DNA of 64,000 bases from Malus domestica (lineage: Eukaryota > Streptophyta > Magnoliopsida > Rosales > Rosaceae), in contig NC_091667.1 in NCBI RefSeq assembly GCF_042453785.1, positions 34,092,001 to 34,156,000 of the forward strand, written 5' to 3'. Below the pieces are notes generated by a model. The model was not told the DNA's origin. It worked only from the letters and a program-made list of their open reading frames with translations, and ran no database searches. Both the position numbers and the translations under genes were made by a program. The first letter of the stretch is position 1. Every line of letters starts with the position of its first letter. Positions 9,839 through 59,143 of this stretch are shown here, in pieces.

Positions 9839-12720
9839 TTTTTATGCACTTTCATAAATTACTCTTACATATGTCACGTTGCTAATTTGATTTTAATATT
9901 AAACAACTAAACAAACATTAATCATAAATTAAGGTGGATATTTCAATGTGCAATATGGAGAAAATTAAAACTAAAGAGGGTGTAAAATGGAGTTAGTTCA
10001 TTCGTTTAACTAAAAATCAACGGATTTTATTGTAACGAGTTATTGACTTGGGCACGGGGCCTCATATTCTCATTGCTTCGTTGGTTTTGTGGCAACAAAT
10101 GTGCTTATCATATATGTCCGATAGTGTATAATGTTTTTGTTTTTCTTCACAATTCACGAATTGATATTTTGGGTGCACTAATCATTACAAACAGGGTAAA
10201 GCTTGTTTTGGTTAAGCACCTCAAGCATACATAAAAAAAATCATTAATTAGGTTAAGCATTAATTAAAAATTTATTAATTAGGTTAAGTTTTTTGTTTTT
10301 CTTTTAGGGCATCGTTAAGTGAAATGAGCATTTCATTAAGGGTCCATATATCACGTGTAATCTTCATTTGTGATAAATAAAATTTCAGAGTGCAGTCCTC
10401 ATAATTAAGTGTTGCTATGTACAAGTAAAGTAAAGCCTAGTAGAAATTAAAACTAATGTCACCAAGTACCACATGTATATGCCTATTGGAGTCGGTCTTC
10501 AAAAAAGTGAACAATCGTGGCTTAGCCGATCTTTCTTCTTTTATAATTTTTTATGAATACCATATAGACATCACTAGCTGAGCTCGTTGACAATGAGATT
10601 AGTTGATTTTCCAACAAACAAGTGATTTTATGAAGATTATTGTTACCCTTGAAATAAACATAAATTTTCTACAAATTGTTGAAACTATTACAATAATTTA
10701 AGAGAAATAAGAGTTTTGAACACAAAACGAGATACATGGGTAAAAACCTAACACTCATATCCACCAAAATATTATACCAAATATAATTTATTTGTTCTCA
10801 TCCAATTTAATTGTTCTCTATTTACACACACCCAATGCAACCACCCACCCACAAACAAACCATGCATACAAGACAATCATAACCTTGGGTTCTTTGCTCT
10901 TAAGTCTAGAAGGTAGACATCTCTCGGAAGTGAAACGAATGTCCCTTCCGATTCTTATAATCGACCAAATACCCTTTTAAGTATTTTTAGTGGTATTCAT
11001 AAACTAGTAAATGAGAAACTTTATATACAACTTTATAAATTGCGAGATCAATTATAATTCACTATTGCTCTTTCATTACATAACATAACCTAAACCGCTC
11101 CACGCTTAAATGTAATATGTTGTTATATCAAGTTTAAAAGAAAATCTTCAAATGATAAAATCCAACTGGATTATGGATTCCAGCTGCAGCAAACAAGAAA
11201 GAAGAAAGAGTGAATTCATTAACCTGCAGCTGCAGTAATTAAAATATCATCACCCAAAGCAATGAAAGCACCATCACTTGCCATGGCTATTGCCATTTGC
11301 CAGAACTACTGGTACTTTGTTGTGAGGTTGGTCCCCGTCAAGATTTGCTGCACCAATCATTTACTTTTGATCTGCTATATTATTACTATTTGTGCCTGTC
11401 TTTTTCTCTAAGCAGCTCGAACTCTCCTATAGTATCATCCTTGGATGGAGTGTGTAGGTGTTTAAAACATCTGAAAGGAATACACAATAAAAACCAACAT
11501 GGCTTTTGCCTCCTTACACAAGATAGTCTCCTAAAGGAAAGTCAGTGGCTCCACTTGTAGAAAATTACAACCAATCGACTAGTAAGAGTTCGATTCTTAT
11601 TTATAATGACTCGCCGGTTGTGAAACTTAATCAAAAATACCATCCCTTGGTGTAGTATGTTACTGTATCAAACAATGATGCATAAAATTCGCTTAGCTAG
11701 ACTATGGATGCGGTAATTAAAATTCTAATGGTTCAAGTAGGGATGGACAAAATATCCGCGGGTATGAGTAACCGCGCGATTACCCGTCCATTTGAAACTC
11801 ATGGTTATGGTTATGGGTAACTATTTAAAACAAATAAACAGTTATATAGATATAACCATTTACCTGTGAAATTTAAATGAGTGATTATGATTATTACCCG
11901 CGGGTACCCATTTAACCGTTTATTTTAATATATGTAAATGAAAAAAACCTAAAAACTCTAAATTGTTCGACCTCTCCCATACTTCTGCCGCTCATCTCTC
12001 TCTCTCATCTCCACCTCGTTCTGACTTCCATCAACTACAAAACCTAGTTTTCTCTTTTTATTTTTATTCAAAATTCAATGATTTATATTTTGGATTAATT
12101 GGATTGGAGGTTTGGATTGGTCTGACATGTGATAAATAATTGAGGAAAGAGCAATTGTTTGTGGTGCCGCTGACTAATCTCCATGCGAGAGTCCTAGACT
12201 GCTTCCTAATTTATTTTCATGGACACTGAGTTGCTATTTTGATGTGTTAGTATTTGTTTTATTTTCTCTTTTTCTTATAATATTAATTGATTGCCAACCA
12301 CATAAGTTTTGTAATGAGAACGACTTGCATGACATGAGCATACGGCAATCGTAATATGTTTCATCAATGATACAATAATATGTACAAGTTTTTTGAAGAT
12401 TTAAAATATGAAAATACGGACATAGATGTTAAATATACTAATAACGGTGTTTAAAAATTATGACAAATTTCTATTTTAATTTTCAAGTTGTTAAAAAAAC
12501 GTGATGGGTGAAAAAAAGGGGTAAAATGAGTAAAAATTGGTAAACAGGTTTAAAATGGGTAAATGATTACGGTTAAATTGGTACACGATTTTGGGTATGC
12601 TTAACCGTCTATGCAATTACCCAAATGGTAAACAGTTATGCGGATAAGAGCTTAAACGGTTATTGGTAAATAACAGCGGTTACCCGTCTGCCATAACCAT
12701 TGCCCATCATGCAAGTGTGA
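9839..12720. repeat. Tandem array unit 1 (~2.88 kb)
   Basis: The block recurs almost base for base at 12,721-15,777. Anchor phrases such as TTTTTATGCACTTTCATAAA begin each unit. The unit has no convincing gene. Short open frames (for example 10,043-10,234 and 11,297-11,560) recur in the other units only because the DNA was duplicated. On the minus strand a short exon-like stretch at about 11,235-11,310 reads MAIAMASDGAFIALGDDI and is followed by a splice-donor-like GT. It may be a relic of an unrecognised gene. Confidence 0.85.
11738..12708. mobile_element. hAT-like non-autonomous element, copy A
   Basis: The element begins TAGGGATGGACAAAATATCC and its far end reads, in reverse complement, GATGGGCAATGGTTATGG. 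TAGGG-type termini are typical of hAT elements. Sub-terminal regions are built from repeated GGTTACCCG/CGGGTAAC motifs in both orientations. No transposase is encoded. The older unit of the array reads straight through the insertion point (CGTTGCAAGTG), which gives a natural empty site. The flanking duplications are degenerate. Confidence 0.65.
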
Positions 12721-18183: not shown

Positions 18184-18314
18184 CCCCAGACGACAGTCCC
18201 TCACTCCCCCAAACCCTTCGTCTTCTTCCCTGACCATTTCTCTCTCCGAGAACATTCTTCTCTCTCTCTCCCTCTGTCTCTGCAGTCGCTCTCTCTCCTC
18301 CACCGCTCTCCAAA

Positions 18315-20628
<2,314 letters not shown>

Positions 20629-23074: not shown

Positions 23075-24083
23075 TTAGAAAGGAGCCTGTGCTGGGGCAA
23101 CCTCCACTGGTGGATAATCAGTTGCCAAGTTCACTGAGTTGATTGGTCCTGGTGCTGTCAATTTCGCGTTGATTGGTCCCGGTGCGACGTATCCAGAGCT
23201 ACGAATCTCCGACATCTCTCGACGAGCATTTGCTCCTTGTGCTGCACATAGTGTTGGTAGAAATACACCTACAACCGAAACACAATACTTAATTAATGTT
23301 ATTCCCATTAAGATTTTTTCGAAAACGTTTTGTTGCTTGACGTATGTTGTTAGATTGTGAATTGAACAATTATTCACGTTGATTTGTACGAATATGCAGT
23401 TTGAATTTACAGTCTAATTAACAATATATAGTTACCTTCACCAGCAGCAAGATTGAAGTAAAGGTCAACAATGTTGGGGCAGCTGCCGTAGCACTGAGGG
23501 GAGCAAAGTTTTTGTGTGAAGCTAGACTCCAGGAGAGAGTCTGATGAGATGCCGTAGGATTTGCGATCAAGCCCACAAGACTTGATGCACGTCTCGCTCT
23601 CGATCCAGTCCTTTAACTTATCGGCCTCAATTTCTGATGTTCGGCACGTGTACGCTTCCTCCCCGCTTCTTCTCACGTGCTTCTCAAGCACACAGCGTTT
23701 GCCGGACGATGACACCGCGAATGCGCATGCATCGTGGTCTAGATTCTCACATGTTATTCCTCCTGCAAGCATGCAATGTATTACATATTTTTTGCACATA
23801 ATTGGCTAGTTATCTCGATAAATATTCGATAGATAACAGCATGTTTGATCAATATTGTTAGTTTTCAAGAAAGTTAAAAACCGACAACATTTACTAAACA
23901 AGTTTTCAATTTTCAAACAAAAAAAAAAAAAAAAAAAACAAGAAAAACAAAATTGAAAACTGAAAACAAATTAATATCAAACCATCTAGTAATTAACACA
24001 AACAAACCTAGAGTGGCTTGGACACAAACGGCAAGGGAAAGAGCCAACACTGCGATGTTCTTCAAGCACATGGTAGAAGCCAT
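23075..24083 (-). CDS. PAR1 (photoassimilate-responsive) family secreted protein, 198 aa
   Basis: Exons on the minus strand are 24,083-24,008, 23,762-23,436 and 23,268-23,075. The splice sites are GT-AG and the joined frame is 198 codons. Residues 1-25 form a hydrophobic signal peptide (NIAVLALSLAVCVQA), so the product should enter the secretory pathway. The mature part matches the plant PAR1 family in my memory: GGITCENLDHDACAF, SSSGKRCVLEKHVRRSGEEA, TCRTSEIEADKLKDWIE, SPQCYGSCPNIVDLYFNLAA and ARREMSEIRSSG. Many paired cysteines suggest disulfides. The C-terminus carries two APGPIN repeats and a proline-rich end. PAR1-family members were described as induced by sugars and pathogens; the molecular function is not known to me. 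No defect was seen. Confidence 0.9.
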
Positions 24084-31962: not shown

Positions 31963-32092
31963 GTTCATATATTTGGCCCTGATTCCAGAACGACAAAAAA
32001 ATGAAGGGATCAGAGTAGTAGTTCAGCTTTCATGCATGCGCATAAATAACATATGTGTGTTGTAGAGCCAAAAACAATTAAGATACAACACG

Positions 32093-32634
32093 TGGATTTT
32101 TGGAAAGGATAAAATTATCTTTGAGGCACATCGGAATTTCTATGTGTGAGCAGTGGACAATCATCGCACAATTAAGTCAAAAATGCCCAAATATGTATTT
32201 ATTTTTAAACCTATTTCATTCATTCTTATCAAATCCTCTCCACAAGGTAGCCCCAAATCATTCATTTTTAATTATATTAATTAGCTAATTAATTGATTTA
32301 TTATTCAATTATTCCTAATTAGCTACAAATCATGAACCTCACCCAAAATATCAACCAAGTGGCCGGTCCTCTTCCTCCTAAAGGGGCCAGCCACACCCTT
32401 ATAAATACTACCTTTATCTCTCCAAAACCCAATTCCAATTCTCTTGCTAAATTCTCTAAATTATCCAAACATTTTTCCCTCAAAATTTTAACTTTGACAT
32501 CGGAGGTTCTTCAGTCAAAGCCTCCCCTCAAATTCATCGTAGGCGCGTGAGACTCTTGATCTTGACCTAAGGTGTTATTTGTTTTGTAGGTGCAATTTTG
32601 TCCAATAGCAAGAAGGAAGAAATTTGCATCCACA
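32093..32634 (+). repeat. Left LTR of the gypsy element
   Basis: Pairs with 34,583-35,223. Sequence identity looks near 85% in the alignable part, so the insertion is old. Confidence 0.75.
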
Positions 32635-34124
32635 AATTGATGCTTTCATTGAGAGTTGAGTCACACGCTCGTAGAAGACTCTCGCATCTAAGGTTTTTTC
32701 TTTCCTTGCTTATTTGTAGATTTTTCGTACGTTCCTTATCCTTGGAATTTTTACTTCTAAAAATTCTTTAATAAAACGTAAAAGAAAAGTACAAATGGCA
32801 AGAGATTTGGAAACCTCGACGAACGAAAATTCCAACGTTCAAGGATTAGGATTGCGGCGATCTTCAAGGCTCAACATAGAGGTGAGTGGAGCGGCACCCC
32901 CCACGAGGCACCACCTTGGCAACCACTCACGACAAGGTACATGGCGCCACAACCACGACCCCGAGCTGTGCCACTTCCACCTTCAAAGGCCCAAGCCCTA
33001 GTCGAGTCGGCCAATGCCACCCAAACTCGACGTGAACCCAACGCGTTGCTAACCTAAGCCCTAGCCTCGCACCCATGTGCGCCACACGCCTAGCAGCCTA
33101 CTCCTGTGGCCCATCATGCTCCCGATGAGTAGCCCACTCTTGTGGCCTAGACTATTCCCATGACCCAGCCTACTCTTGTGGCCTAGCCTGTTCCCGTAGC
33201 CTTCCAAGCAGCCCAAATCGGTCCAAGATCAAATCTCGACTTCCACTGCTCAAAGAGATACATTCCTTCCAAGCTTTTCCAACCCAAATGGAGAACAACA
33301 CTTGTCTCGACAAGTCATAGAGTTGACGAGCGCTATCGCACAACAAACGAACTTAGTGAACCAACTCTTGCAGCGTATCGAGATGCAACTTACCTTAGAC
33401 AAGGTGTCCCGAAGTAGGACATGGGCAGACGAAGAACCTCTCCAGTTGCTTCCCCGCAAGCAGTCACTAGACCGGCCACGAACCAAACGTTCGGGCAGTG
33501 TACACTTTTGACTGGGCCCTTTAGATAGCGTATACTCCCGTCTTAGCGTGTGGAGGAGCGTGCACTCTCGACTAGGCCCACAGACGAGCATACATTCAGG
33601 TTGGGGTCACACTCCGATAGTCAACATGAGCAACCTTCCATGCAAAATGTTCATTCGCTGCTAAGCCTTCAAGGAGCATCATCCACCTCACTTTGAAATA
33701 GGCAGCACGACTGACGAAAAGAAGCAGTCACTCAATCCGACTCAAGATCACTAGACAGCATACGAGAAATTCACTCATTTGCTAGACCAGCAGGTCACGA
33801 CTAGGGGCAGCTGAGAACTCTGCTACCTTCACAAAGGTAAATTCAGGAAGAAGTAGAGAGACTCTTGACTAAGCGATTGCACGTAATGAGGTTACCGATG
33901 AGACACTACGACGGGACATGACCAACATAAGCATTTCACCCTTCACGGATGAGATCGAGCAGGCAGAGCAGCCTTCCAAAAAGGACTTCCAGCAAACCAC
34001 CCGTTGTTAGAAAAATTAATCATCTAACTTTGGCATACTCTTTCAGTCTGACAGATAAGCATGCATTTTGGGACAATGCTCGCCAATCAAGATGCAAGGA
34101 CTTGAAAAAGAACCTGACATCACC

Positions 34125-34430: not shown

Positions 34431-34582
34431 ACGCAACAACTCGGCCCAAAGGCGCGCCAAGGGCAGACGAACACTAGAATGACATACTCAAAAACAAGTT
34501 TTGTCTTCGTTGCCCCAAAAGTTTCTACATAGGAGCAACATGCACCGGCAGTAGAACACCACCTCCAAAAATAATCAAGAGG

Positions 34583-35223
34583 TGACATATGAATTTTTTA
34601 GTAAAATTGATAAAATTACCCTCGAGGCACACCAGAATTCCTACGCGCTAGCAGTGGACAATCATCCCACAATCAAGTAAAAAATGCCCAAATAGGTATT
34701 TATTTTTAAACCTATTTCATCCATCATCATCAAATCCTCTCCACAAGGTAACCCCCAAATAATTCCTTTTTAATTATATTAATTAACTAATTAATTGATT
34801 TATTATTCAATTATTCCTAATTAGCTACATATCATGAACCTCACCCAAAATACCAACTAAGTGGCCGGTCCTCCTCCTCCTAAAGGGGCCGGCCACACCC
34901 CTATAAATACTACCTTAATCTCTCCAAAATTCAATTCCAATTCTCTTACTAAGTTCTCTAAATTCTCCAAACAATTTTCTCTCAAAATTCTAACTTTGGC
35001 ATCAGAGGTTCTTTGGCCAAAGCCCTCCCCCCCTCCCAATTCATTCTCTAAATTTTCCAAATACTTTTCTCTCAAAATTCTAACTTTGACAACGGAGGTT
35101 CTTTGGCTAAAGTCCCCCCAATTCATCGTGGGCATATGGGGTTCTTGACCTTGACCTAAAGTGTTATTTATTTTGTAGATATAATTTTGTCTAAGAGCAA
35201 AAAAGAAGAAATTTGCATCCACA
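34583..35223 (+). repeat. Right LTR of the gypsy element
   Basis: Longer than the left LTR because a block containing TTCTCTCAAAATTCTAACTT occurs twice (about 34,975 and 35,065). It has a TATA-like TATAAATACTACC at about 34,902. Confidence 0.75.
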
Positions 35224-35625
35224 TGTGTGTGTGAGTTTATCCATCGGCGAGGCCCCATGGCTCCATGGGCCAAGAAAATATCCGACAATAATTACTGTTT
35301 TAATACTAAATTTCTCGATGAGACGTTGACTTCGACATTTGTCTGATAAAATATCTCGTGCAGGATTTTGTAGTGTAAGAAGACTGTTCTTAATTTTATT
35401 TTGTTTGAATCCAGTGATTTAAAACATCACAGTTTCTTGACAATGATAATATGCATGGCTATGAATTTCTATAAAAAATGGATGATGAAATGATCCATCT
35501 TTTGCCCTGCGTGATCACAGCAGGCGCATGGTGAACTGAATTGTACGGAGACTTTGAAGATAATGGAACAACCATTATCAAACTAAGAACGAACCCTATT
35601 AAGAAATTAGCACAAGAACAGGTAA

Positions 35626-35661
<36 letters not shown>

Positions 35662-35940
35662 ATCAGCTATATGCTTATGATCAATCTAGCTAGCACTTAG
35701 GTGGATATATTATTTGCATCTATTTTCCAGTTAAACAAAACCTAGCCAGTGAAGTTTCTGCAAACATTTCAAGCCTCACCCTATAATAACCATCTGCGAA
35801 TTAACAAAATTAACTAAATTATGATCATGAAGTTAATAAGCTCTCAAAAAATTCATCAAATTAATTGGCAAAGTAAAGAGGGTTTACTTTCGATTTCATA
35901 CCTGGATAAACCGATTATCAGATGAGTTAAGAGGTTTAGA
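35224..35940. other. Spacer between gypsy element and MIR393
   Basis: AT-rich, with one CA microsatellite. It would lie 3' of the MIR393 hairpin on the minus strand. Nothing else recognised. Confidence 0.45.
35627..35659. repeat. (CA)n microsatellite
   Basis: Uninterrupted CA dinucleotides for 33 bases. Likely length-polymorphic. Confidence 0.95.
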
Positions 35941-36080
35941 GCAGATGATGGAAACGTCCGAAGGGATCGCATGATCCAACTACATATATAACCTGCCATG
36001 TCTGTACGGACGATGTTTGACATATATGATCAATTAGATCAATGCGATCCCTTTGGAAGCCTCCACCTGCACTAGATATA
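35941..36080 (-). ncRNA. MIR393: MIR393 microRNA precursor
   Basis: On the minus strand the 21 bases at 36,057-36,037 equal the conserved plant miR393 as I remember it (start UCCAAAGGGAUCGCAU). The next base is U instead of the usual final C. After a loop of about 60 bases the other arm at 35,975-35,955 reads AUCAUGCGAUCCC and then UUCGGACG, a typical miR393 star. The two strands pair over nearly the whole 21 bases, with one A-C mismatch and one bulged U. The star extends two bases beyond the pairing at its 3' end, as Dicer-like products do. Pairing continues below the duplex (GCAGGUGGAGG against complementary bases of AUCAUCUGC). miR393 is known to cut mRNAs of the TIR1/AFB auxin receptors. 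A TATA box lies upstream at 36,179-36,185. It is independent of the neighbouring genes. Confidence 0.92.
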
Positions 36081-36178
36081 TATTCTTCAAAACCCTAGCT
36101 CTCAAAAGAAATATGCATATGGCATATATGGTGATTCAAGTCTCAGGAACTGGTTATTTGGGTTCTTGATCAGTTGAG

Positions 36179-36185
36179 TTTATAT
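36179..36185 (-). promoter_or_regulatory. Candidate TATA box of the MIR393 transcript
   Basis: The minus strand reads TATATAA about 120 bases before the mature miRNA. This would start the primary transcript near 36,150. It is placed by position and motif only. Confidence 0.45.
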
Positions 36186-36199
36186 ACGAAAGGAGAAGG

Positions 36200-38034: not shown

Positions 38035-41000
38035 ATGCCGGCGACCCACTTCGGCGTCAAGTACGCCGTACACATCATCACCTCCCACTTCGGCAATCTT
38101 GTCGCTGTACTCTCTCTCTCTAAAGCTTCCACCTTTCCCCCTCTTTTTTCCTAATTTTTCTGTAATTATTACTAATTAATGTGTTTACGGATGCAGAAAG
38201 TGTGTGAAAATCTTCTGAAACGAGGACCCCTAACACTGAGACTCCTAATTGGGTTCACGGAGCTCACCCCTCAGCAAGTCAAGAATTCCCTCCTCATCCT
38301 AATCCAGCACAATTGCGTTCAGCCCTTCTCCGTCGACCAAGCAGGTGCTTCTCTCACACCCTAACCCTAACAATCTCAGCGTTCGTTGAAAATTTTGTGA
38401 CCCCTTTTGGGATTTGATTGATTTGATCAATGTGCATGATAAAGTGAGTGACTTGGTTTGTGAATGTGATTCAGAGGGCCCGAAAGTCACTCAGTATGTA
38501 GCACTGATCGATAACATACTCCATCGATGGAGGTTTGCCAAATTCATGACGGTTGTTTCGCAGGAATTCGATAAAGAGGTTAGTTTTTTACCTCTTTTGG
38601 TTTTGACTTTGGTTTGTTTGTTTTTAATTGATCAATTCTCAGATTATAGCCTTTTACTCATTGTTTTGCAGTGTGAACTAATTATTAAGGATTTGCTTGA
38701 GAATGGTAGGCTTACTTTAAAACAAATAACTGAAGGTAACCCTTTTCTCAGTGTTTGATTGCATTTTTTGTTGACTGGTTTTGATTGAATTTACAACTAA
38801 TTGGGTTCATTGTGTTTGGGTGTACGACTAGTATCCGTTCCCATAACTTGCTATGTTTTTTGTTTTGTAAATTATAGGTTTTTGTTTGATTTTTCAAAAC
38901 AGGAGAATATGCAGTTAAGGATACTGTTGAGAAAAGCTTTCTTAAACTTGTGAACGCTCATTTTGTGGAACGCTGCCCGGCTCCTGAAGCAGTTCTCGAA
39001 GAAGCAAGTAAAGATGCTCCAAAGAAGCGAGGTCCTAAGTCTTCCAAGGTAAAGATTCCACTGATATGCTTGAAAATTAAGAAAAGAGATCTTTAGTTAT
39101 GCACCTCCTTTAGTTGCACATTTTTTAGTTTGTTTTGCAAAATGTGTATCTTTATAAATCATTTTTGGAATTCTAACAGATTGTTGAAGTACCAGAGACT
39201 ATAGAACAACGTGTTGTAGCAGTAGCAGCACCTTCAGCAGCTATGAGATTTTCTATTTTGACAGATTCTGAAACCGATGCTCATGGGGGTAGTTCTTCTA
39301 GTATGAGTACCGGGGACAAGGTTGGTATAAGTATGGTCATTTGTAGACACCAGGGATAGTTTGTTCTAATATACAAGTTCTTGAAAAGCAACTCCATCCT
39401 AATGTGTTGTTTTCGGCATTTACAGCGAAAGCATGATGCTTTGGAGTTGGATGAATTTGCTAATAATGAAGTGGTTCTTTGGCGTGCTAATTTTGAGGAA
39501 TTCATTCGCTGCCTAAGGCACAAGGTTGGTTTTCTGTCTGCTTTCTTTTGAATTATAATTATCCGTTCATAGTAATGAGAGCGGTTGGATTTTCTGGTTA
39601 AACATTATATGTTGAGTATGTTTTGGCATAATCTGAATTTGTTTATGCGGATGCTCTGTATGCTCTATTGATACTAACTGGTAGAGATAGTTCAGTTTTC
39701 GATGACTAGAAGAAGGTCAAGAGTGAGTTAAATGTTGCCATGCTTTTCAGAAACTACATGTTGGGTTTGCATTTGAGTTCAAAGTTCAAACTTTTCCCTC
39801 TTTTGTAATTATAGAGTTTGGTTCATTGAAATGAACCTTGGAGTAGACTGAACATCCAAATGGGCATTGCTTGGTTGACAAAAAGAATTAATTATGTAAA
39901 GGAAAGGGAAATCCTCTGTGGAATGTCCAAATACTACCTGAGTTCTTTCTCTGCATTATTAATTGTGTTCCTATGGGTAACCTTATCTTTTCATGAGATG
40001 CATTCCTTCATCTTTTGATATGGTTCTGCATAGTCTGCCTGAGGTGAAAGTAAATTTTCATTTTGTGGTCTAGGCTTGCGTTGAGAATGTGAGAGCACGG
40101 CTGGATGACGGAGCTGCACTTGTCTTAAGAGCAATGCTTAAGTCAACTAGAACTGCAGAGAAGAAAGTAAAGACCGAAAATTCAGGTAAACCGGAAGTGT
40201 GGATTATTGCGTGGTGAATTGGTTATTTTCAGTTCAATTTCTCGGCCAAGAAAATGTTGATGAGTTTAGAAATAACATGATACCTTAATAATTTCTATTG
40301 GCCAAGACAGTGTTGATTCAGAATTACTTAAAATACAAACAATTCAACAAGTCATTGGGAAGGAGTATGACCAAACAATAAAGAAAGTTCGAAAAGTAGC
40401 CAAGGAATAACCTTAATAAATGAAACCAACAAATACAAATACTTAATAATTATTTTAGAAATAACATGAAACCTTAATAAATGAAGCCAAGGAATAGTTT
40501 CGTTGATTGTTTTGCTGATTGATTTTGCAGTTCCTGTATCATTCAGTACTATTTATGAGGAGGTGATAAACAGCGAAGCTGGTCGTAATTTGACATGTGA
40601 TCGCGTCAAAGCTTCCCTCAGCTTGTTGTGCGACGAAAGAGATGTCGATGAGGATGAGTCGTATAGTGTTGGTACAATTCGCTTCTTCTCATACAATTGA
40701 TTTTTGGTTTTTATTTTTCCTTTATCTTTCTTATCGATAACATAGTAACAGATTGGTACTGAGCTTTCATTAACGCATTTATTTCTTGTACAGACTTGAA
40801 GAAAATTCTTGAGCTGGCTCAGAATGATGAGGTTTTATCTGACTTTTGTTCTTTCAAGATATATGAAAATTCATTTTTATTCACCAGGACCAATGTCTAA
40901 GTACCTTTTCTTTTCTGTAGGTGGAGTCAATTGTTTTGAAAAGATATGGGAGAGATGCTTATAAAATGTTTAGGCTACTGTCGACTTCAAGTCGTGCACT

Positions 41001-41752
41001 TGAGACGGATAAGGTAATAACTTTGTTATGACTTCCACCGCTCGCATCTGTACGATGAATTATTCAGTTTATCATGAGCGTTGGTAGAATGACCACAAAA
41101 TTTAATGTGTTTGGAGCAAGTCAAGGTTTATGTTGTTGTTAGAATAGCACATTTGATATTTCGAACACTCATCCCAATACTTTATAGATTTCAGATATGA
41201 CACTTGTTGAAAAGAAGGAAACTCCCACAATTCTATATAAGCTGTGGAATGATGAGTACTTGCTTATGGAGGTAAAGCACTTCCCTGTTATATGTACCAC
41301 GTGCACACACATGCAGCCGTGCTAGTGTTTTTACTTTTGCTCTCTACGACAATGTGTCATCTCGCTGCAGAGATTAGCTGTGACAGGAGCCAGACAGGCA
41401 CAGTTCTTGGTGTGGAAGGTTGACAGGCCCATTGTTTGGAAACATGTTTTAGATGAGATGTTCCACGCAGCGCTGAATCTGAGTCTTCGACTGGCGTACG
41501 AGGACGAACAGATTAAAGAGGTTCGTAAAAACACATAATGTTATGGTTCTAGTATGTTCAGTTTGGAAACGGTTCAGGTTCGTATTCTGAACAATCGAAG
41601 TTGTCTCATATTTGCAGGTACAGCTTCTCCCAGCGCACAAGCGAACGGGGCCATTAGGGAAACAATGGCAAAGATTTAGAAATGTGGTTTATGTTATGCA
41701 CGCATCCCAACTGAAGATTGATGATGCCATCATGCTCTTCCATGACTTCTGA
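38035..41752 (+). CDS. RPC3: RNA polymerase III subunit RPC3 (RPC82/POLR3C), 508 aa, 14 exons
   Basis: RPC3 belongs to the Pol III-specific initiation subcomplex with RPC6 and RPC7, which works at tRNA and 5S rRNA genes in the nucleus. Exons: 38,035-38,106; 38,197-38,344; 38,475-38,578; 38,672-38,735; 38,903-39,048; 39,180-39,320; 39,426-39,524; 40,074-40,185; 40,531-40,671; 40,794-40,831; 40,921-41,013; 41,188-41,271; 41,371-41,520; 41,618-41,752. All have GT-AG borders and the sum is 1,527 bases in one frame. The N-terminus (FGVKYAVHIITSHFGNLVA, then KVCENLLKRGPLTLRLL) is the family's first winged helix. Later come DLLENGRLTLKQITE, EEFIRCLRHKACVENVRARL, KMFRLLSTSSRALETDKISD and DEMFHAALNLSLRL. 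Length fits the family. A truncated inverted copy follows from 42.6 kb, so read-through could form a hairpin. Confidence 0.95.
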
Positions 41753-49615: not shown

Positions 49616-52600
49616 TTACACTAGACCTGGTTGCACGTTCTTCATGGTCATTTGTCTTCGAGGAATCCCTTCACAAGTGTGAACTGTAGAAGCAAATCGA
49701 AGGGAGCAGCAGGTTTCCCCGATGGAAGACAAGTTTTGCGCGACGCTGACATCAGCGTCTTGCAATCTCCTCCCAAACAAAGATGTTTATGCATGAAAAG
49801 AGATGTGATGTAAATACTACAATTCCTTGAGAACAAAGCAAGCAACAATAACGGTAAAACTATCACAGATTACTATACCTGTAGAAGATAGGTTAGCATG
49901 GAATTCCTAAATGGAACATGGTCCTCCTTGTTCACCAAAGCAGACATCATGCAACTCAAGGATAACAAACTTTTGTTAATAGTTTGGGTTTCCTTCAACC
50001 GCTCTCCGGTTGCACCCGTCCTCGACAATCTCTCACTTCCAGCGAGATCGATAAGATTTAAGACCTCATTGACTTCTTGTTTTTGTTTTCCCCCGATATA
50101 TGGACTCTGAAACCAAAATAAGGGAAGAAAGAAAAGTGCCCCATTTTAAAATGCTTCAATATTTCCACAAAAAACATCATTCTGGGAAGCCTGGTGAAAT
50201 ACTTTGTCAAAGGTCAAATGATGATTTTGTCCTGCAAAGTTAATAAAACATTTATAGAAAATTAGATTCAAATAATTCGTCACTATGATTTTAAACTAGA
50301 TAAGAAATAAAACAAGCATTAGAGTGCCCATACCATTTGGTAGCAAGTCGATGCCTCTGCCAAGAGACTCTGTTGCGGTAGGATAAGAAACTGCAGGCGC
50401 TTCATTCTCATTAGCTAGCCACGGTCAAACTCGACAAAAGACCCTCATATTTCCTTTTACTTCCTATTAAAGAAGAAGATTCATACCTAAAATATTCCAA
50501 TTACGATTCTCTTCTAAACCACATATTGTTAAATACATCTGACATACTAAATACAACCCACTAATACTTTTTTCCAATTAAATTTTAAAACACACCCCAC
50601 TTACATTCCCAAATTGCCCTCACTTTCTGCATATACCATACACTCTCTACATACACCCCACATCCAAAAAGAAGCAAATGAATACACAACTAGGTTTCTG
50701 TCATGAATGTTTTTTTCTCCCACAGATATCAAATGCAAAAATCATGAATATTCATAACAAATGAGTTATTTTAGTTGATATCTAACGAACGCGAGATTTA
50801 TGTTAACAAACATCAAATGATACGAACAAATATGGGTGAATAATCATAAACATGTGAAACAGCCTAAATAATTATAGGGTCTTTTTTCACGTTTACATTT
50901 CTGTCAATTTTAGGGTTTAGGTCCATCAATTTAGAGGTTCCTTTGAATTAGGGGTTTATGATTGAATTAGTCACTGATCGATTAACCATGCCAACATCAC
51001 TTTCATGTTATTTGGGAAAACATGTGCTCAATACAAGGGCAAATTTGGCTATTGCATTTTCCATGGGATAACATTTTCATTGACTAGTCACCCAAAGAGC
51101 AGAGCATGAAGAAAAATAGTATACAAATTGAACATGACGGGGGTGTATTCATAAAATAACTTCTATTAGAAAATTTATGGAGCCTAAATAGTTATTTTAT
51201 ATTAAAGTAATAAAACAATATGTGAAGTACATTTAACAAAGTGAGGTGCTAATAAGAATACCATAAAAGTGTTATGGAATTTTTTCCTGAAGTTTTCTCC
51301 TTCAAACACGATTCTTTTCTGTTCTTCTAGTTGTGTCAGTGTCATCTTCAGTTTTTCATTTAAAGCACCTAAATTGTGCTTCAAGGTATATTCTCTTTTC
51401 TGGAAAAGCATGCCGACAACAAAAATAAATAAATAAAACGTTTTAAAATAGATGACTTAGTATTTAATATTTTAAACTAAACATATATTCCTTTTAAGAT
51501 GAGTGGATTCTAATTTTCTCTAAAAATAGTAAAAGCAAAACAAAAATAAAACGAATCCAATACCAACCTTAAGCGACTTCACCCTTTGAGCTACTAATGT
51601 AAAACTTTCGGTCAAACGTTTCAGATCCTCAAAGTGCCTTACTCTTTGATCCATGATTTCTTTCTCGCCATCCCAGTCATGCGGCACCAACACGCAAACC
51701 ATAAATGTTATTTTACGTATCCATAAACAAATGAAACTGATTCATTTCCAAGCACGCAAACAATACCTTAAGCCTACACATCTCTCTCCTACATTAATCT
51801 ACCGATTTCTAGTTGTTGCGCTAATTTTTTTTCCTAAAAAATTATGCGTTTTCAAAGTAACGAGTTATAATAAAAGCATGATCTCGAATATGTTACGAAA
51901 ATTAATTGGACTTAATATTGATAATGGATTTACAAGTATTTTAATCATGATAAAATACATAATAGAGAAATTATTAGAACTACAGATCATAGAATAAGAG
52001 TTGGTTACAAACTCTTAAAACTGCAAACACAACTACTACCACGATAGGAGGAGCACTTATGATCTCACGTAAATAAAACTGCAGTATGGTCTTTCTTCTC
52101 GAACATGAGGTTTGTATGCACTAACTCTATCAAGAGTGAAACTATTCTGACTTCGAGAGAGAAGAAGATTGATGCGACTCTATGCTGTTTGGTTTCGATC
52201 ATAATTAGTTAGACCACCTATTGTTATTACTATCCATTAAGCTCATTACATAGGTAATATCATTACGCCCTTCTACACCTCAAAACATACTATCATTCAA
52301 TGTATTTAAACTTTTTTTCGTATGTAATGAGGATTATGAATGAAGATATGAATTTACTTTGATTTATTTTCCATTTCAACATTTATTTTCTTACAATTTC
52401 CCTTTTATCATGTTTGATCCTATCAAATATCACTACAAAGGTTTTGCCACAACAATTTTACAATTCATTCATTAGAGTTTGTATTGGTTGTCTAAATCTC
52501 ATGTCTAATCCTGCAAGTAAGTCTTGCTTCCTTTATTTGTATATTAATAATACATGTTGACAACGATATAATATATAAATGTAGTCTAGTGATCAAGTTC

Positions 52601-53702
52601 TTTAAGTATCAAAATACCAACAATGCACACCACAATATTACAAAAATAAAACCAAATACAAACCTCTAAAGCTTTTAAACTTGCAAGGATATGTGGCAAA
52701 AAATTTGCAAATTGTTTCTACAAAAGTCAATGAACCCATTTATTTTTGTATTACATTCTCTAAACTTGCAAAACCACTAATCACTATTTGCATCACAAGG
52801 CATATGAACACCAATTCCGTTCTCGTAATTTACACATAGTAATGAAAAACTAATAAATAATGGAAAGCACTCTAGTCAATGGTGTATATGGAGATGTATA
52901 ACATATATATCTCTAGCTATAGGAGCCCAAGTCAACATCACATAAATAAAAAATTCACATTACTCAAATCGGAAGCACCAAAAATTCAAATAGGGATAAC
53001 TTTTCCACTAGCTTTTATCCCATTATTAGCAAAAAATCTTCACTATCCATTAACTCTTTCACTAAGGAAATCTTATTTTCCTCTATTTAAACCAATTTGG
53101 AACGAAAACCCTTCAACCCCATCAATGGAATCGACCCTTCTTTATCATCCAGGCCAAAATCTCCATATGTCCATACATTGAATAAGAGAACCCTCAACTT
53201 CCTTTGTGCTTGTTCTTGCCCAATATTAAATGTGTTTTGTTCTGGTGTGGGTTGTAATTAATTTTGGTGAAACAGGGTCATTGGTTTCAAGTTTGGAAGA
53301 TCATGAACGGAAACACCGTTGGTTGCTTGTTCTTACTTGGCACGTAACCACCTCCTCAACCCATAAAAATTTAAAAAATGTATGAGCAAACTGTGGTTCC
53401 AGTGGGTGGGTCTAGGGGAGGGATGAGGGGCAGCAAAAGGAAGTTAGGGAAATGGGGATCTTAGGCAGGGCCAAAAATGGAGGAAAATCATTGCAGATAG
53501 AACTCTTTGGCCTTGAAATGAAATATTAGATTGTTCAAGTCATTTACTATTTATACTTTCCCTCTAAAATCCATCAAAATCATAATTTGATTACACCATT
53601 TTTATTTTATTTTTCCAAAAATCAAAGTTATGGAATGAAAAAGTAAAGTTAGCTTACCAAAAGCGGAGTCAGATGAGCACTGCTTTGGTCGCTAGAAGCC
53701 AT
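49616..53702 (-). pseudogene. Broken kinesin-14 (ATK/KIN-14 type) gene, left palindrome arm
   Basis: Minus-directed, C-terminal-motor kinesin-14 remains. Exon 1 (53,702-53,658) encodes MASSDQSSAHLTPLL. Then come a coiled-coil exon with stops (about 51,840-51,765), PHDWDGEKEIMDQRVRHFED (51,680), the neck (REYTLKHNLGALNEKLK, then LEEQKRIVFEGENFRKK; 51,400-51,270), the first motor part (SYPTATESLGRGIDLLPN, about 50,370) and HHLTFDKVFHQASQNDVF (50,220). The later part is [20 protein letters not shown] and [17 protein letters not shown] (50,070-49,880), then LGGDCKTLM, a frame shift, and CSLRFASTVHTCEGIPRRQ with a stop at 49,618-49,616. The exons for the P-loop and the centre of the motor domain are absent. 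With stops and a frameshift, this is a pseudogene. Confidence 0.9.
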
Positions 53703-53924
53703 TAATCAGGTGGAGTTGAGGATCAGATTATCCAAGGATAAGAGCACAGGGAAGAAGAAGAATAAGAGGGAATGGTTGGGGCATAGGAAAAGAGGGAAGA
53801 AGAAGAATAAGAGTGCTTTCTTTTTCTAAAAGTTTTACAAAGATCATTTATTCGGAGTCGTCGATGCAGGGTGTGGAGTTCCCTTCTCTTTTTTTCTCTT
53901 TCTTTATACAATATAAAATAGAGA

Positions 53925-54500: not shown

Positions 54501-54785
54501 ATATTTCGAAAACTTTTAGAGAGAGAAACAAATAGATAGGTGATGGAGCGTTAGGTGATTAGACATGAGCATGCCATTATAGTAAAAAAGCAATCTCCTG
54601 TCTTTTCCTCTGCCCACACCTTCCCTCTTCTTCTTCTTCTTCCCCGTTGGATAATCCGACCCTGCGCATGTCATTCTAGTGAAAAAGCATTGTCCTATCT
54701 TTTCCTTTACGCCACCCTTTCCTTCTTCTTCTTCTTCCCCGTGCTCTTATCCTTAGATAATCCAACCTTCGCCTCCACCTGATTA

Positions 54786-57700
54786 ATGATTTCTAACGAC
54801 CAAAGCAGGACTTCTCCGACTCCGCTTTCGGTAAGCTCTAACTTTACTTTTTCATTCCATAACTTTGATTTTTGGAAAAATAGAATAAGGAGGGTGTAGT
54901 CAAATTATGATTTTATAAGATTTTGATAAATTTTAGAGAGGAAACTATAAATAGAAAATGACTTAAACAATCTAACATTTTATTTCAGGGCCAAAGAGTT
55001 CTATCTACAGTAGTCTTTCTCCATTTTTTGCCCTGCATGAGATCCCTATTTCCCTAACTTCCTTTCGCCACCCTTCATCCCTCCCTGAGACCCACCCACT
55101 GTGACCGTAGTTTGCTCATCTATTTTCTAAATTTTTATGGGTTGAGTAGGTGGCTGTGTGCCAAGCAAGAACAAATCACCAATGGCGCTTCCGATCATGA
55201 TCTCCCAAACCTAAAACCAATGGCCTTGTTTCAGACCAGAATTAATCCAACCCACACAAAAACAAAACCCAATTGATATTGGGCTCCCACAGCAAGAACA
55301 AGCACAAAGGAAGTTGAGGATTTTCATGGTGTTTTACTCAATGTATGGGCATGTGGAGATTTTGGCCTAGAGGATAAAGAAAATGGTCGATTCCATTGAT
55401 GGGGTTGAAGGGTTTTCGTTCCAAATTGCTTCAAATAGAGGAAGATAAGGCTTTCTCAGTGAAAGAGTTAAGGGATAGTGAAGATTTTTGGCCAATACTG
55501 GAATGAAAGCTAGTGGAAAAGTTATCCCTCTTTGCATATTTTGGTACTTCAGATTTGAGTAATGTGAATTTTTTATTTATGTGATGTTACTTGGGCTCCA
55601 CATCTAGAGATGTATGTGTTATACATCTTCATATACACCATTTACTAGAGTGTTTTTCATTATTTATTGGTTTTTCATTGCTATGTGTAAATTGCAAGAA
55701 CGAAATTGGTATCCATATGCCTTGTAATACAAATAGTGGTCGGTGACTTTGCAAGTTTATAGAATGTAATACAAAAATAAACAGGTTGATTGACTTTTGC
55801 AAGAACAATTTATAAATTTTGTGCCACATATCCTTGCAAGTTTAAAAGCTTTAGAGGTTTGTATTAATTTTTATTTTGTTTTACTTTTATTTTTGTTATA
55901 TATTTATAATATTGTGGTGTGCATTGTTGGCATTTTGATACTTAAAGAACTTGATCAACCAGATCACTATACTACATTCATATATTATATCGTTGTTAAC
56001 ATATATTATTAATATACAAATAAAAGAAGCAAAACTTACTTGCAGGATTAGCCATAAGATCCAAACAACCAACACAAACTCTAATGAACGAATTGTAAAG
56101 TTGTTGGGGCAAAACCTTTGCAGTGATCTTTGATAGGATCATACTTGATAAAAAGGAAATTGCAAGAAAGTAAATGTTGAAATGGAAAATAAATTAAAGT
56201 AAATTCATATATTATTCATAATCCTCTTTACATACGAAAAGAAGTTTAAATACATTGAAGGATAGTAAGATTTAAGGTGTAGATGGACCTAATGGATAAT
56301 AATAACAATATGTGGTCTAACTAGTCATGACTGAAGCCTAATAGCATAGAGTCACATCAATCTTCTCTTCTCTAGGACTCAGAATAGTTTCACTCTTGAT
56401 AGAGCTAGTGCATATAAACCTCATGTTTGAGAAGATAAGACCATACAGTTTTGTTTACGTGAGATCACAACTACTCCTCTTATCATGGTAGCAATTGTGT
56501 TTGCAATTTTAAGAGTTTGTAACCAACTCTTATTCCATTATCTTTAGTTCTAATAATTTCCCTCTTGTGTATTTTATCATGATTAAAATACTAGTGAGTC
56601 CATCATTAATATAAGTCTAAATAGTCCTCATAACATATTCAATATCATGGTTTTATTATAACTCACATTACTTTGAAAACGCACAATTTTTCAGGAAAAA
56701 GAATCAGCACAACAATTAGAAATTGATAGATTGAAGCAAGAGAGAGATGTGATGAGGCTCAAGGTATTGTTTGCATGCTTGGAAATGAATTAGCTCCATT
56801 GGTCTATAGATATATAAAATAACATCTATGATTTACGTGTAGGTGCCACATGACTGGGATGGCAAGGGAGAAATCATGGACCAAAGAGTGAGGCACTTTG
56901 AGGAGCTGGAACGTTTGACCGAAAGTGTTACATTAGTAGCCCAAAGAGTGAAGTCGATTAAGATTGGTATTGGATTCATTTTACTTTTGTTTTGCTTTTA
57001 TTATTTTTTGAGAAAATTAAAATCCCCCCTCATCTTAAAAGGAATATATATTTAATTTAAAATGTTAAATACTAAGGCATTTACTTCAAAACGTTTTATT
57101 TATTTATTTATTTTTGTTATGAGCATGGTTTTCCAGGAAAGAGAATACACACTGAAGCATGATTTAGATGCTTCAAATGAAAAACTGAAGATGGAACAGA
57201 AAAGAATCGTGCTTGAAGGAGAAAACCTCAGAAAAAAAAACTCCATAACACTATTACGGTAAGTTTTTTTATTAGCACTTCACACTTTGTTAAATGCACC
57301 CCACATATTGTTTTATTATTAAATAATTTAACACTCTAATATAAAATAACTATTTAGATCCCATAAATTTTCTAATATAAGTTATTTTATTTATACACCC
57401 TATGTAGAGCCCAACCCAAAAAACTAGTCCAACAAGTGAGAGGACCCCAAGGACTTAAGAATCCCTACACCCTCATAAGTGTAGTTGATGTGGGATCATA
57501 ACATTACACCACCCTTCGGAAGCCGACACCCACGGCGGCCCTTATTCTGGTGGCTTTCACTCTTAACGGCGGCGCACCCTTGGTCGTCCCGTTAAGGTAG
57601 TCCCTTCCAGGTCGTTCCCTCCGCAGCGTCGGGAACCTAGGCTCTGATACCAATATTAGGTACTCAATGTTAGGTACTCAAGCCCAAGGGAATAGCCCAA

Positions 57701-59143
57701 CCCAAAAGACTAATCTAATAAGTGGGAGGATCCCAAGGACTAAAGAACCCTTACACCCCCATAAGTGTAGTCGATGTGGGGTCATAACATTACACCACCA
57801 TTCGGAAGCCGACGCCCACGGCGGCCCTTACTCTGGTGGCTTTCACTCTTAGCGGCGGCGCACCCTTGGTCGTCCCGTTAAGGTAGTCCTTTCCAGGTCG
57901 CCTCCTCCGCAGCGTCGGGAACCTAGGCTCTGATACCAATGTTAGGTACTCAAGCCCAAGGGAAGAGCCCAACCCAAAAAACTAGTCTAATAGGTGGGAG
58001 GACCCCAATGACTTAAGAACCCCTACAACCCCATAAGTGTAGTCGATGCGGGATCATAACACTACGTTATGTTCAATTTGTATATTTTTCTTCTTGCTCT
58101 ACTCTTTAAATGTCTAGTCAATGACAATGTTGATCCCATGAAAAATGCAATAGTCAAATCTGCCTTTTTATTGAGCACATGTTCTTCCAAACAACATAAA
58201 AGTGATGTTGACATGGTTGATCGATCAGTGACCAATTCAATCATAAACCCCTAATTCACATAAACCCCCAAACTGATAGACCTAAACCCTAAAATTGACA
58301 AAAATCTAAACGTGAAGAAAAATCCTAGAATTATTGGTTGTTTCACATGTTTACTATCATTCATCCATATTTGTTCGTATTTTTTTGTTTGTTGACATAA
58401 ATCTCGTGCTTGTCAAATATCAAATGAAATATCTCATTTGTTATGAATATTCATGATTTCTGTATTTGATATTCGTGGGAGAAAAAAACATTCATATTTG
58501 ATGTTTAATATTCATGATAGAAACCTAGTTGTGTATTTCTTTGATTCTTTTTAGATGTGGGATGTATGTAGAGAGTAAGATATATGCAGAAAGTGTGAGG
58601 TGTAAGGGCAATTTGGGAATATAAGTGGGGTGTATTTAATATATAAGATGTATTTAACAACATATGACGCAAAAGAGAATCGTAATTTGAAGATTTTAGG
58701 TACTAACCTTCTTCTTTAATACGAATTAAAAGGAAATATTAAGATCTTTTGTCGAGTGCGACCGTGGCTAGCTGATGAGGATGAAGCACCTACAATTTCT
58801 TATCCTACCGACCATGGCTAGCTGATGAGGATGAAGCACCTACAATTTCTTATCCTACCGCAACAAAATCTCTCGACAGAGACATCATCTTGCTACAAAA
58901 TGGTATGGGCACTCTAATGCTTGGTTTTTTTTCTTATCTAATTTAAAATCATAGAGACGAATTATTTGGATCTAATTTCACCATAAATGTTTTGTCAACT
59001 TTACAAGCCAAAATCATCATTTTACCTTTGACATAATATTTCACCACGAGGCTTCCCAGGAGGATGTTTTTGTGGAAATATCGGAGCTTATGCACAGTGC
59101 ACTCAATGGCTATAAGGTACAGTGCACTCAATGGCTATAAGGT
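54786..59143 (+). pseudogene. Broken kinesin-14 gene, right palindrome arm
   Basis: Plus-directed copy. Exon 1 (54,786-54,830) encodes MISNDQSRTSPTPLS. Next are 56,695-56,763 (EKESAQQLEIDRLKQERDVM), 56,843-56,962 (PHDWDGKGEIMDQRVRHFEE), 57,137-57,258 (neck, REYTLKHDLDASNEKLKM and EQKRIVLEGENLRKK), about 58,750-58,902 ([19 protein letters not shown]) and about 58,990-59,116 ([20 protein letters not shown], then ALNGYK). Defects: the splice donor after 56,962 is ATTGGT where the left arm has GTTGGT; a 51-base tandem duplication at 58,758-58,861 inserts a stop; a ~27-base duplication follows the last exon; and a TRIM lies in the intron at 57.4-58.1 kb. The P-loop (GQTGSGKT) and everything after it are absent. 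No motor function is possible. Confidence 0.9.
57415..58066 (-). mobile_element. Tandem TRIM retrotransposon (three LTRs, two interiors)
   Basis: The order is LTR (5' truncated, 57,415-57,522), interior, LTR (about 57,670-57,791), interior, LTR (57,940-58,063). The LTR is about 125 bases, reading TGTTAGGTACTCAAGCCCAA at one end and GGGATCATAACA at the other. Next to an LTR the minus strand reads TTGGTATCAGAGCC, the binding site for initiator methionine tRNA, so the element lies on the minus strand. At the other side of the interior the minus strand has a purine run, GAAGGGTGGTG. The interior of about 145 bases is non-coding. These features define a TRIM. The matching place in the left palindrome arm (about 51,140) lacks it. 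Confidence 0.85.

Follow-up and report, generated by a model that had tools for sequence, protein, structure and literature searches.

The window, by which we mean the whole 64,000-nucleotide stretch of Malus domestica DNA analysed here (contig NC_091667.1, positions 34,092,001 to 34,156,000), carries on its minus strand a hairpin which is almost certainly a canonical MIR393 gene of a Malus, or very closely related, genome. No stop-to-stop reading frame of at least 130 amino acids overlaps this hairpin, and the nearest listed frame ends at position 35291. The features of the locus and its flanks are as follows.

35937-36074, minus strand: fold-back stem of MIR393 with some 17 nt of lower stem under the miRNA (first and last paired bases in the dot-bracket structure of the 35930-36090 fold)
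36036-36057, minus strand: miR393 (5p), 22 nt, UCCAAAGGGAUCGCAUUGAUCU, containing the exact 21-mer and equal to the 22-nt sequence paired with apple miRC17 (PMC3446319, Table 1)
35976-36035, minus strand: upper stem and terminal loop (RNA fold)
35955-35975, minus strand: miR393 star (3p), 21 nt, AUCAUGCGAUCCCUUCGGACG, located from the pairing table and equal to apple miRC17 (PMC3446319, Table 1)
35948-36067, minus strand: match to the full Rfam model RF02516 (MIR393), 92.3 bits against a gathering cut-off of 60, E 1e-19
35947-36066, plus strand: match to RF02516 on the opposite strand, 66.6 bits against the cut-off of 60
36180-36186, minus strand: TATATAA, a weak candidate TATA box matching TATAWAW, 129 nt upstream of the miRNA

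The gene adjoining MIR393 encodes the RNA polymerase III subunit RPC3 (38036-41752, plus strand) and contains Pfam RPC82 domains. Aligned with a M. domestica protein, its hand-joined translation of 507 residues agrees at 499 of 510 positions (98%); next come M. sylvestris with 93% identity and Prunus avium with 74%, among the best 120 of 466 matches in a protein database clustered at 90%. A second, inverted copy of RPC3 lies tail-to-tail with the first (45627-42706, minus strand; 92-94% identity by blastn), lacks the part matching residues 1-159 and matches an annotated M. domestica protein of 339 residues. Further large duplications are visible in the window, namely a second large inverted duplication (50153-53793 and 54698-59087, 78-83% identical), adjoined by a fragment of a kinesin motor (49876-50145, minus strand), and tandem duplicated segments between 7898 and 16032, which reach up to 95% identity over 2.4 kb and of which the third part is more diverged. 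The window also holds a tubulin gene (18234-20628, plus strand) with the GTPase and C-terminal domains on separate exons, and a match to the PAR1 protein family (23410-23805, minus strand, E 3.3e-60). On the other side of MIR393, two direct repeats of about 570-660 bp (32068-32634 and 34565-35223), 83-87% identical and about 2.5 kb apart, probably form the terminal repeats of an old LTR element. Two nearby ORFs were tested for Pfam domains and gave none. The end of this probable element is some 0.7 kb away from the MIR393 hairpin, on its downstream side.

Membership of the hairpin in the MIR393 family rests on the full-length match to RF02516, in which the alignment spans positions 1-126 of the 126 in the model on 36067-35948 of the minus strand, with a score well over the curated gathering cut-off (E 7.2e-21 in a smaller search). 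The miRNA, the star and the lower stem are conserved with respect to the family, and the loop differs from it in sequence and length, as is usual. Two other Rfam rows, mir-H11 (27 bits against a cut-off of 70) and SCARNA7 (24 against 65), fell under their cut-offs and were rejected. The 5' arm bears the conserved miR393 at 36057-36037 (minus strand) with all 21 bases identical; searching both strands of the window at up to three mismatches gave this site alone, and among 100 shuffled windows not one contained such a match. Thus the original prediction of a MIR393 gene on the minus strand, with the conserved miR393 in its 5' arm, is borne out by the model score, by the exact 21-mer and by the identity of both arms with a printed apple pair. 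We regard the locus as an unremarkable member of this familiar plant microRNA gene family, of a kind already known.

The same observations bear on the idea that an inverted repeat or a transposon gave rise to the hairpin, as a source of siRNAs whose likeness to miR393 is accidental. The window does contain several repeats, inverted as well as direct, the LTR pair among them. However, the MIR393 hairpin lies outside that pair, the 21-mer has no second copy in the window within three mismatches, and the MIR393 covariance model is fitted from end to end, so that we consider this origin extremely improbable. In larger collections, the miR393 21-mer had no match among viral contigs. A single exact match was found in a genome-contig collection of 257 billion bases, within a bacterial genome bin; it is presumably a chance occurrence, about 0.1 exact matches being expected by a simple random estimate.

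Folding of positions 35930-36090 of the minus strand gives one long hairpin of −64.8 kcal/mol, compared with a mean of −36.5 kcal/mol for shuffled sequences (z −7.4), and none of the 200 shuffles folded as well. Folding of this region had been proposed beforehand as a check on the prediction, and it gives a stable hairpin. The pairing of the miRNA duplex was unchanged in all three wider contexts that were folded (221, 301 and 601 nt). When both strands of the window were tiled in 1596 windows of 161 nt, two reached −64.8 kcal/mol or lower, namely the MIR393 hairpin and 32880-33040 (minus strand), and the region 18480-18640 (minus strand) came third with −64.7 kcal/mol, just behind MIR393. The region 32880-33040 has the lowest raw energy of all (−74.5 kcal/mol), sits between the two direct repeats and is without an Rfam match. 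Raw fold energy was therefore dropped as sole proof of the MIR393 hairpin, one region being lower and another near-equal, and because it is not unique in the window, our case is built on the family match and the shuffle score.

On the plus strand, the hairpin likewise scores over the Rfam cut-off and folds at −55.2 kcal/mol, which raises the question of whether an antisense MIR393 precursor exists in addition to, or instead of, the one described here. A near-palindromic stem is expected to match on the plus strand by symmetry. The minus strand is better by 25.7 bits and by its fold (−64.8 against −55.2 kcal/mol), and the exact 21-mer and both printed arms are found on the minus strand only. 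The plus-strand match was for these reasons rejected as a second gene, and an antisense precursor appears very unlikely.

The community criteria for plant microRNA genes ask for a hairpin with a miRNA/miRNA* duplex, few mismatches and 2-nt 3' overhangs, and for both strands of the duplex to be sequenced and precisely processed. The duplex formed by 36057-36036 (22 nt) and 35975-35955 (21 nt) has overhangs of 2 nt at both 3' ends, a single A:C mismatch (A36054 opposite C35960) and a single 1-nt bulge, U36041, in the 5p arm. One mismatch and one bulge are what had been predicted, and the pairing table shows them at these positions. The predicted 2-base overhang holds at both ends for the 22/21 duplex, but not for a miRNA of 21 nt, which would end at 36037 and leave just 1 nt on the miRNA side. 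The miR393 of this locus is therefore best written as 22 nt with a 21-nt star. This geometry is consistent with an asymmetric duplex that would yield a 22-nt guide; the apple miR393 in print also has 22 nt. The final U of the mature region, which the original prediction had pointed out as a departure from the usual 22-nt form, is present; its description as unusual was overstated, since the 22-mer ending in U (or T) is common in print, among the matching papers on many plants, and we take it as a normal variant. The 3' arm, predicted to be a typical miR393 star, pairs with the miRNA at 35975-35955 and agrees letter for letter with the printed apple 3p.

A stem of about 17 nt under the miRNA is of a length suited to base-to-loop processing in plant miRNA biogenesis, and the lower stem of the present hairpin fits such processing. 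From what is known of the family, the minus strand would be transcribed by RNA polymerase II into a non-coding RNA. Its fold-back would be processed by DCL1, most likely with an initial cut some 17 nt above the stem base, so as to release the 22/21-nt duplex. The asymmetry of this duplex, with its bulged U in the 5p arm, would yield a 22-nt miR393, which would guide AGO1 to the mRNAs of the auxin receptors TIR1, AFB2 and AFB3 and lead to their cleavage. Guides of 22 nt can trigger secondary siRNAs, and it is possible that miR393 starts secondary siRNAs from these mRNAs. Secondary siRNAs have been linked to miR393 in banana, according to a review (PMC9409142).

Action of miR393 on TIR1/AFB genes in Malus is supported by published target lists, and at this locus it would follow by analogy. 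In Malus hupehensis, TIR1, AFB2 and AFB3 are given as miR393 targets with inverse expression (PMC4523022), and the same three targets are named for 'Yanfu 6' apple (PMC5371658). In PMC3446319, the apple degradome lends weak support to an auxin F-box target (2.72 TPB, category 3). Apple miR393b is stated to act on MdTIR1A in the review PMC9409142, and this module, for which PMC9409142 and PMC9180697 cite Li et al. (2021), involves the same miRNA family and the same genus as the present locus. Within the window itself, no target gene of miR393 was found at up to three mismatches.

Judged from its sequence, the MIR393 copy at 36067-35948 (minus strand) is likely to be functional. It could instead be a silent or decaying copy, with its hairpin intact but without transcription, so that other loci would supply the plant's miR393. 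The probable LTR element about 0.7 kb downstream would be in keeping with silencing, yet neither arm nor the lower stem shows decay, and the 3p arm, although less constrained than the miRNA, equals a sequenced apple small RNA. We therefore consider a silent copy unlikely. Upstream, TATAWAW has two matches in 642 nt, against an average in the window of 1.34 per kb per strand. The TATA-like site is thus at chance density, where a match alone means little, and TATATAA is kept as a weak promoter candidate only.

The printed pair to which both arms correspond comes from apple small-RNA sequencing; PMC3446319 names the accession GSE36065 for public apple small-RNA reads. In Table 1 of Xia et al. (2012; PMC3446319), the 3p appears under the name miRC17 as a novel miRNA specific to apple, with miR393 as its star. 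The roles assigned to the two arms thus differ from ours, while the sequences of both arms are letter-for-letter identical. For miRC17 the table gives 11 normalised reads, all from leaf, with none from root, flower or fruit, and in that study a miRNA/miRNA* pair had to hold more than 75% of the reads of a locus. Before new miRNAs were called, reads within two mismatches of the mature miRNAs of miRBase 17 had been removed; a star strand that was not yet listed could get through this filter as a new miRNA. The table gives one matched locus per miRNA, contig MDC005391.194 around position 11,429 in the case of miRC17, and therefore its reads could stem from another MIR393 copy. Because both of its arms are identical to the arms of the miR393 hairpin described here, miRC17 is, on sequence grounds, miR393-3p.

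A similar case is found in cotton, where miR7253, from a 3' arm, was termed novel and Gossypium-specific (PMC3726788). It is identical to the 3p arm of the window in 19 of 21 bases, and a jute paper (PMC4378336) files the very same 21-mer under miR393, as col-miR393b-3p. The jute and cotton sequences end in AU, whereas the 3p of the window ends in CG. By this resemblance, cotton miR7253 is most likely also miR393-3p under a wrong label, as with miRC17. Later cotton work uses the name miR393-3p, according to a review, and in the open-licence literature we found no published correction of the miRC17 or miR7253 labels; there, the name miR7253 came up in its original paper only.

In Arabidopsis, miR393b* acts on the SNARE gene MEMB12 via AGO2 (review PMC9409142), and by analogy the leaf-preferential apple 3p arm might work as a guide of its own, for which we see only a slim chance. 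Such a guide would differ at its 3' end from the jute and cotton forms, having CG where these have AU. At the level of genes, the gain is one more annotated MIR393 locus in an apple-type genome. The practical benefit lies in a correction: miRC17, and most likely miR7253 as well, is the passenger arm of a miRNA that ranks among the most conserved in plants, and does not count as a lineage-specific invention.
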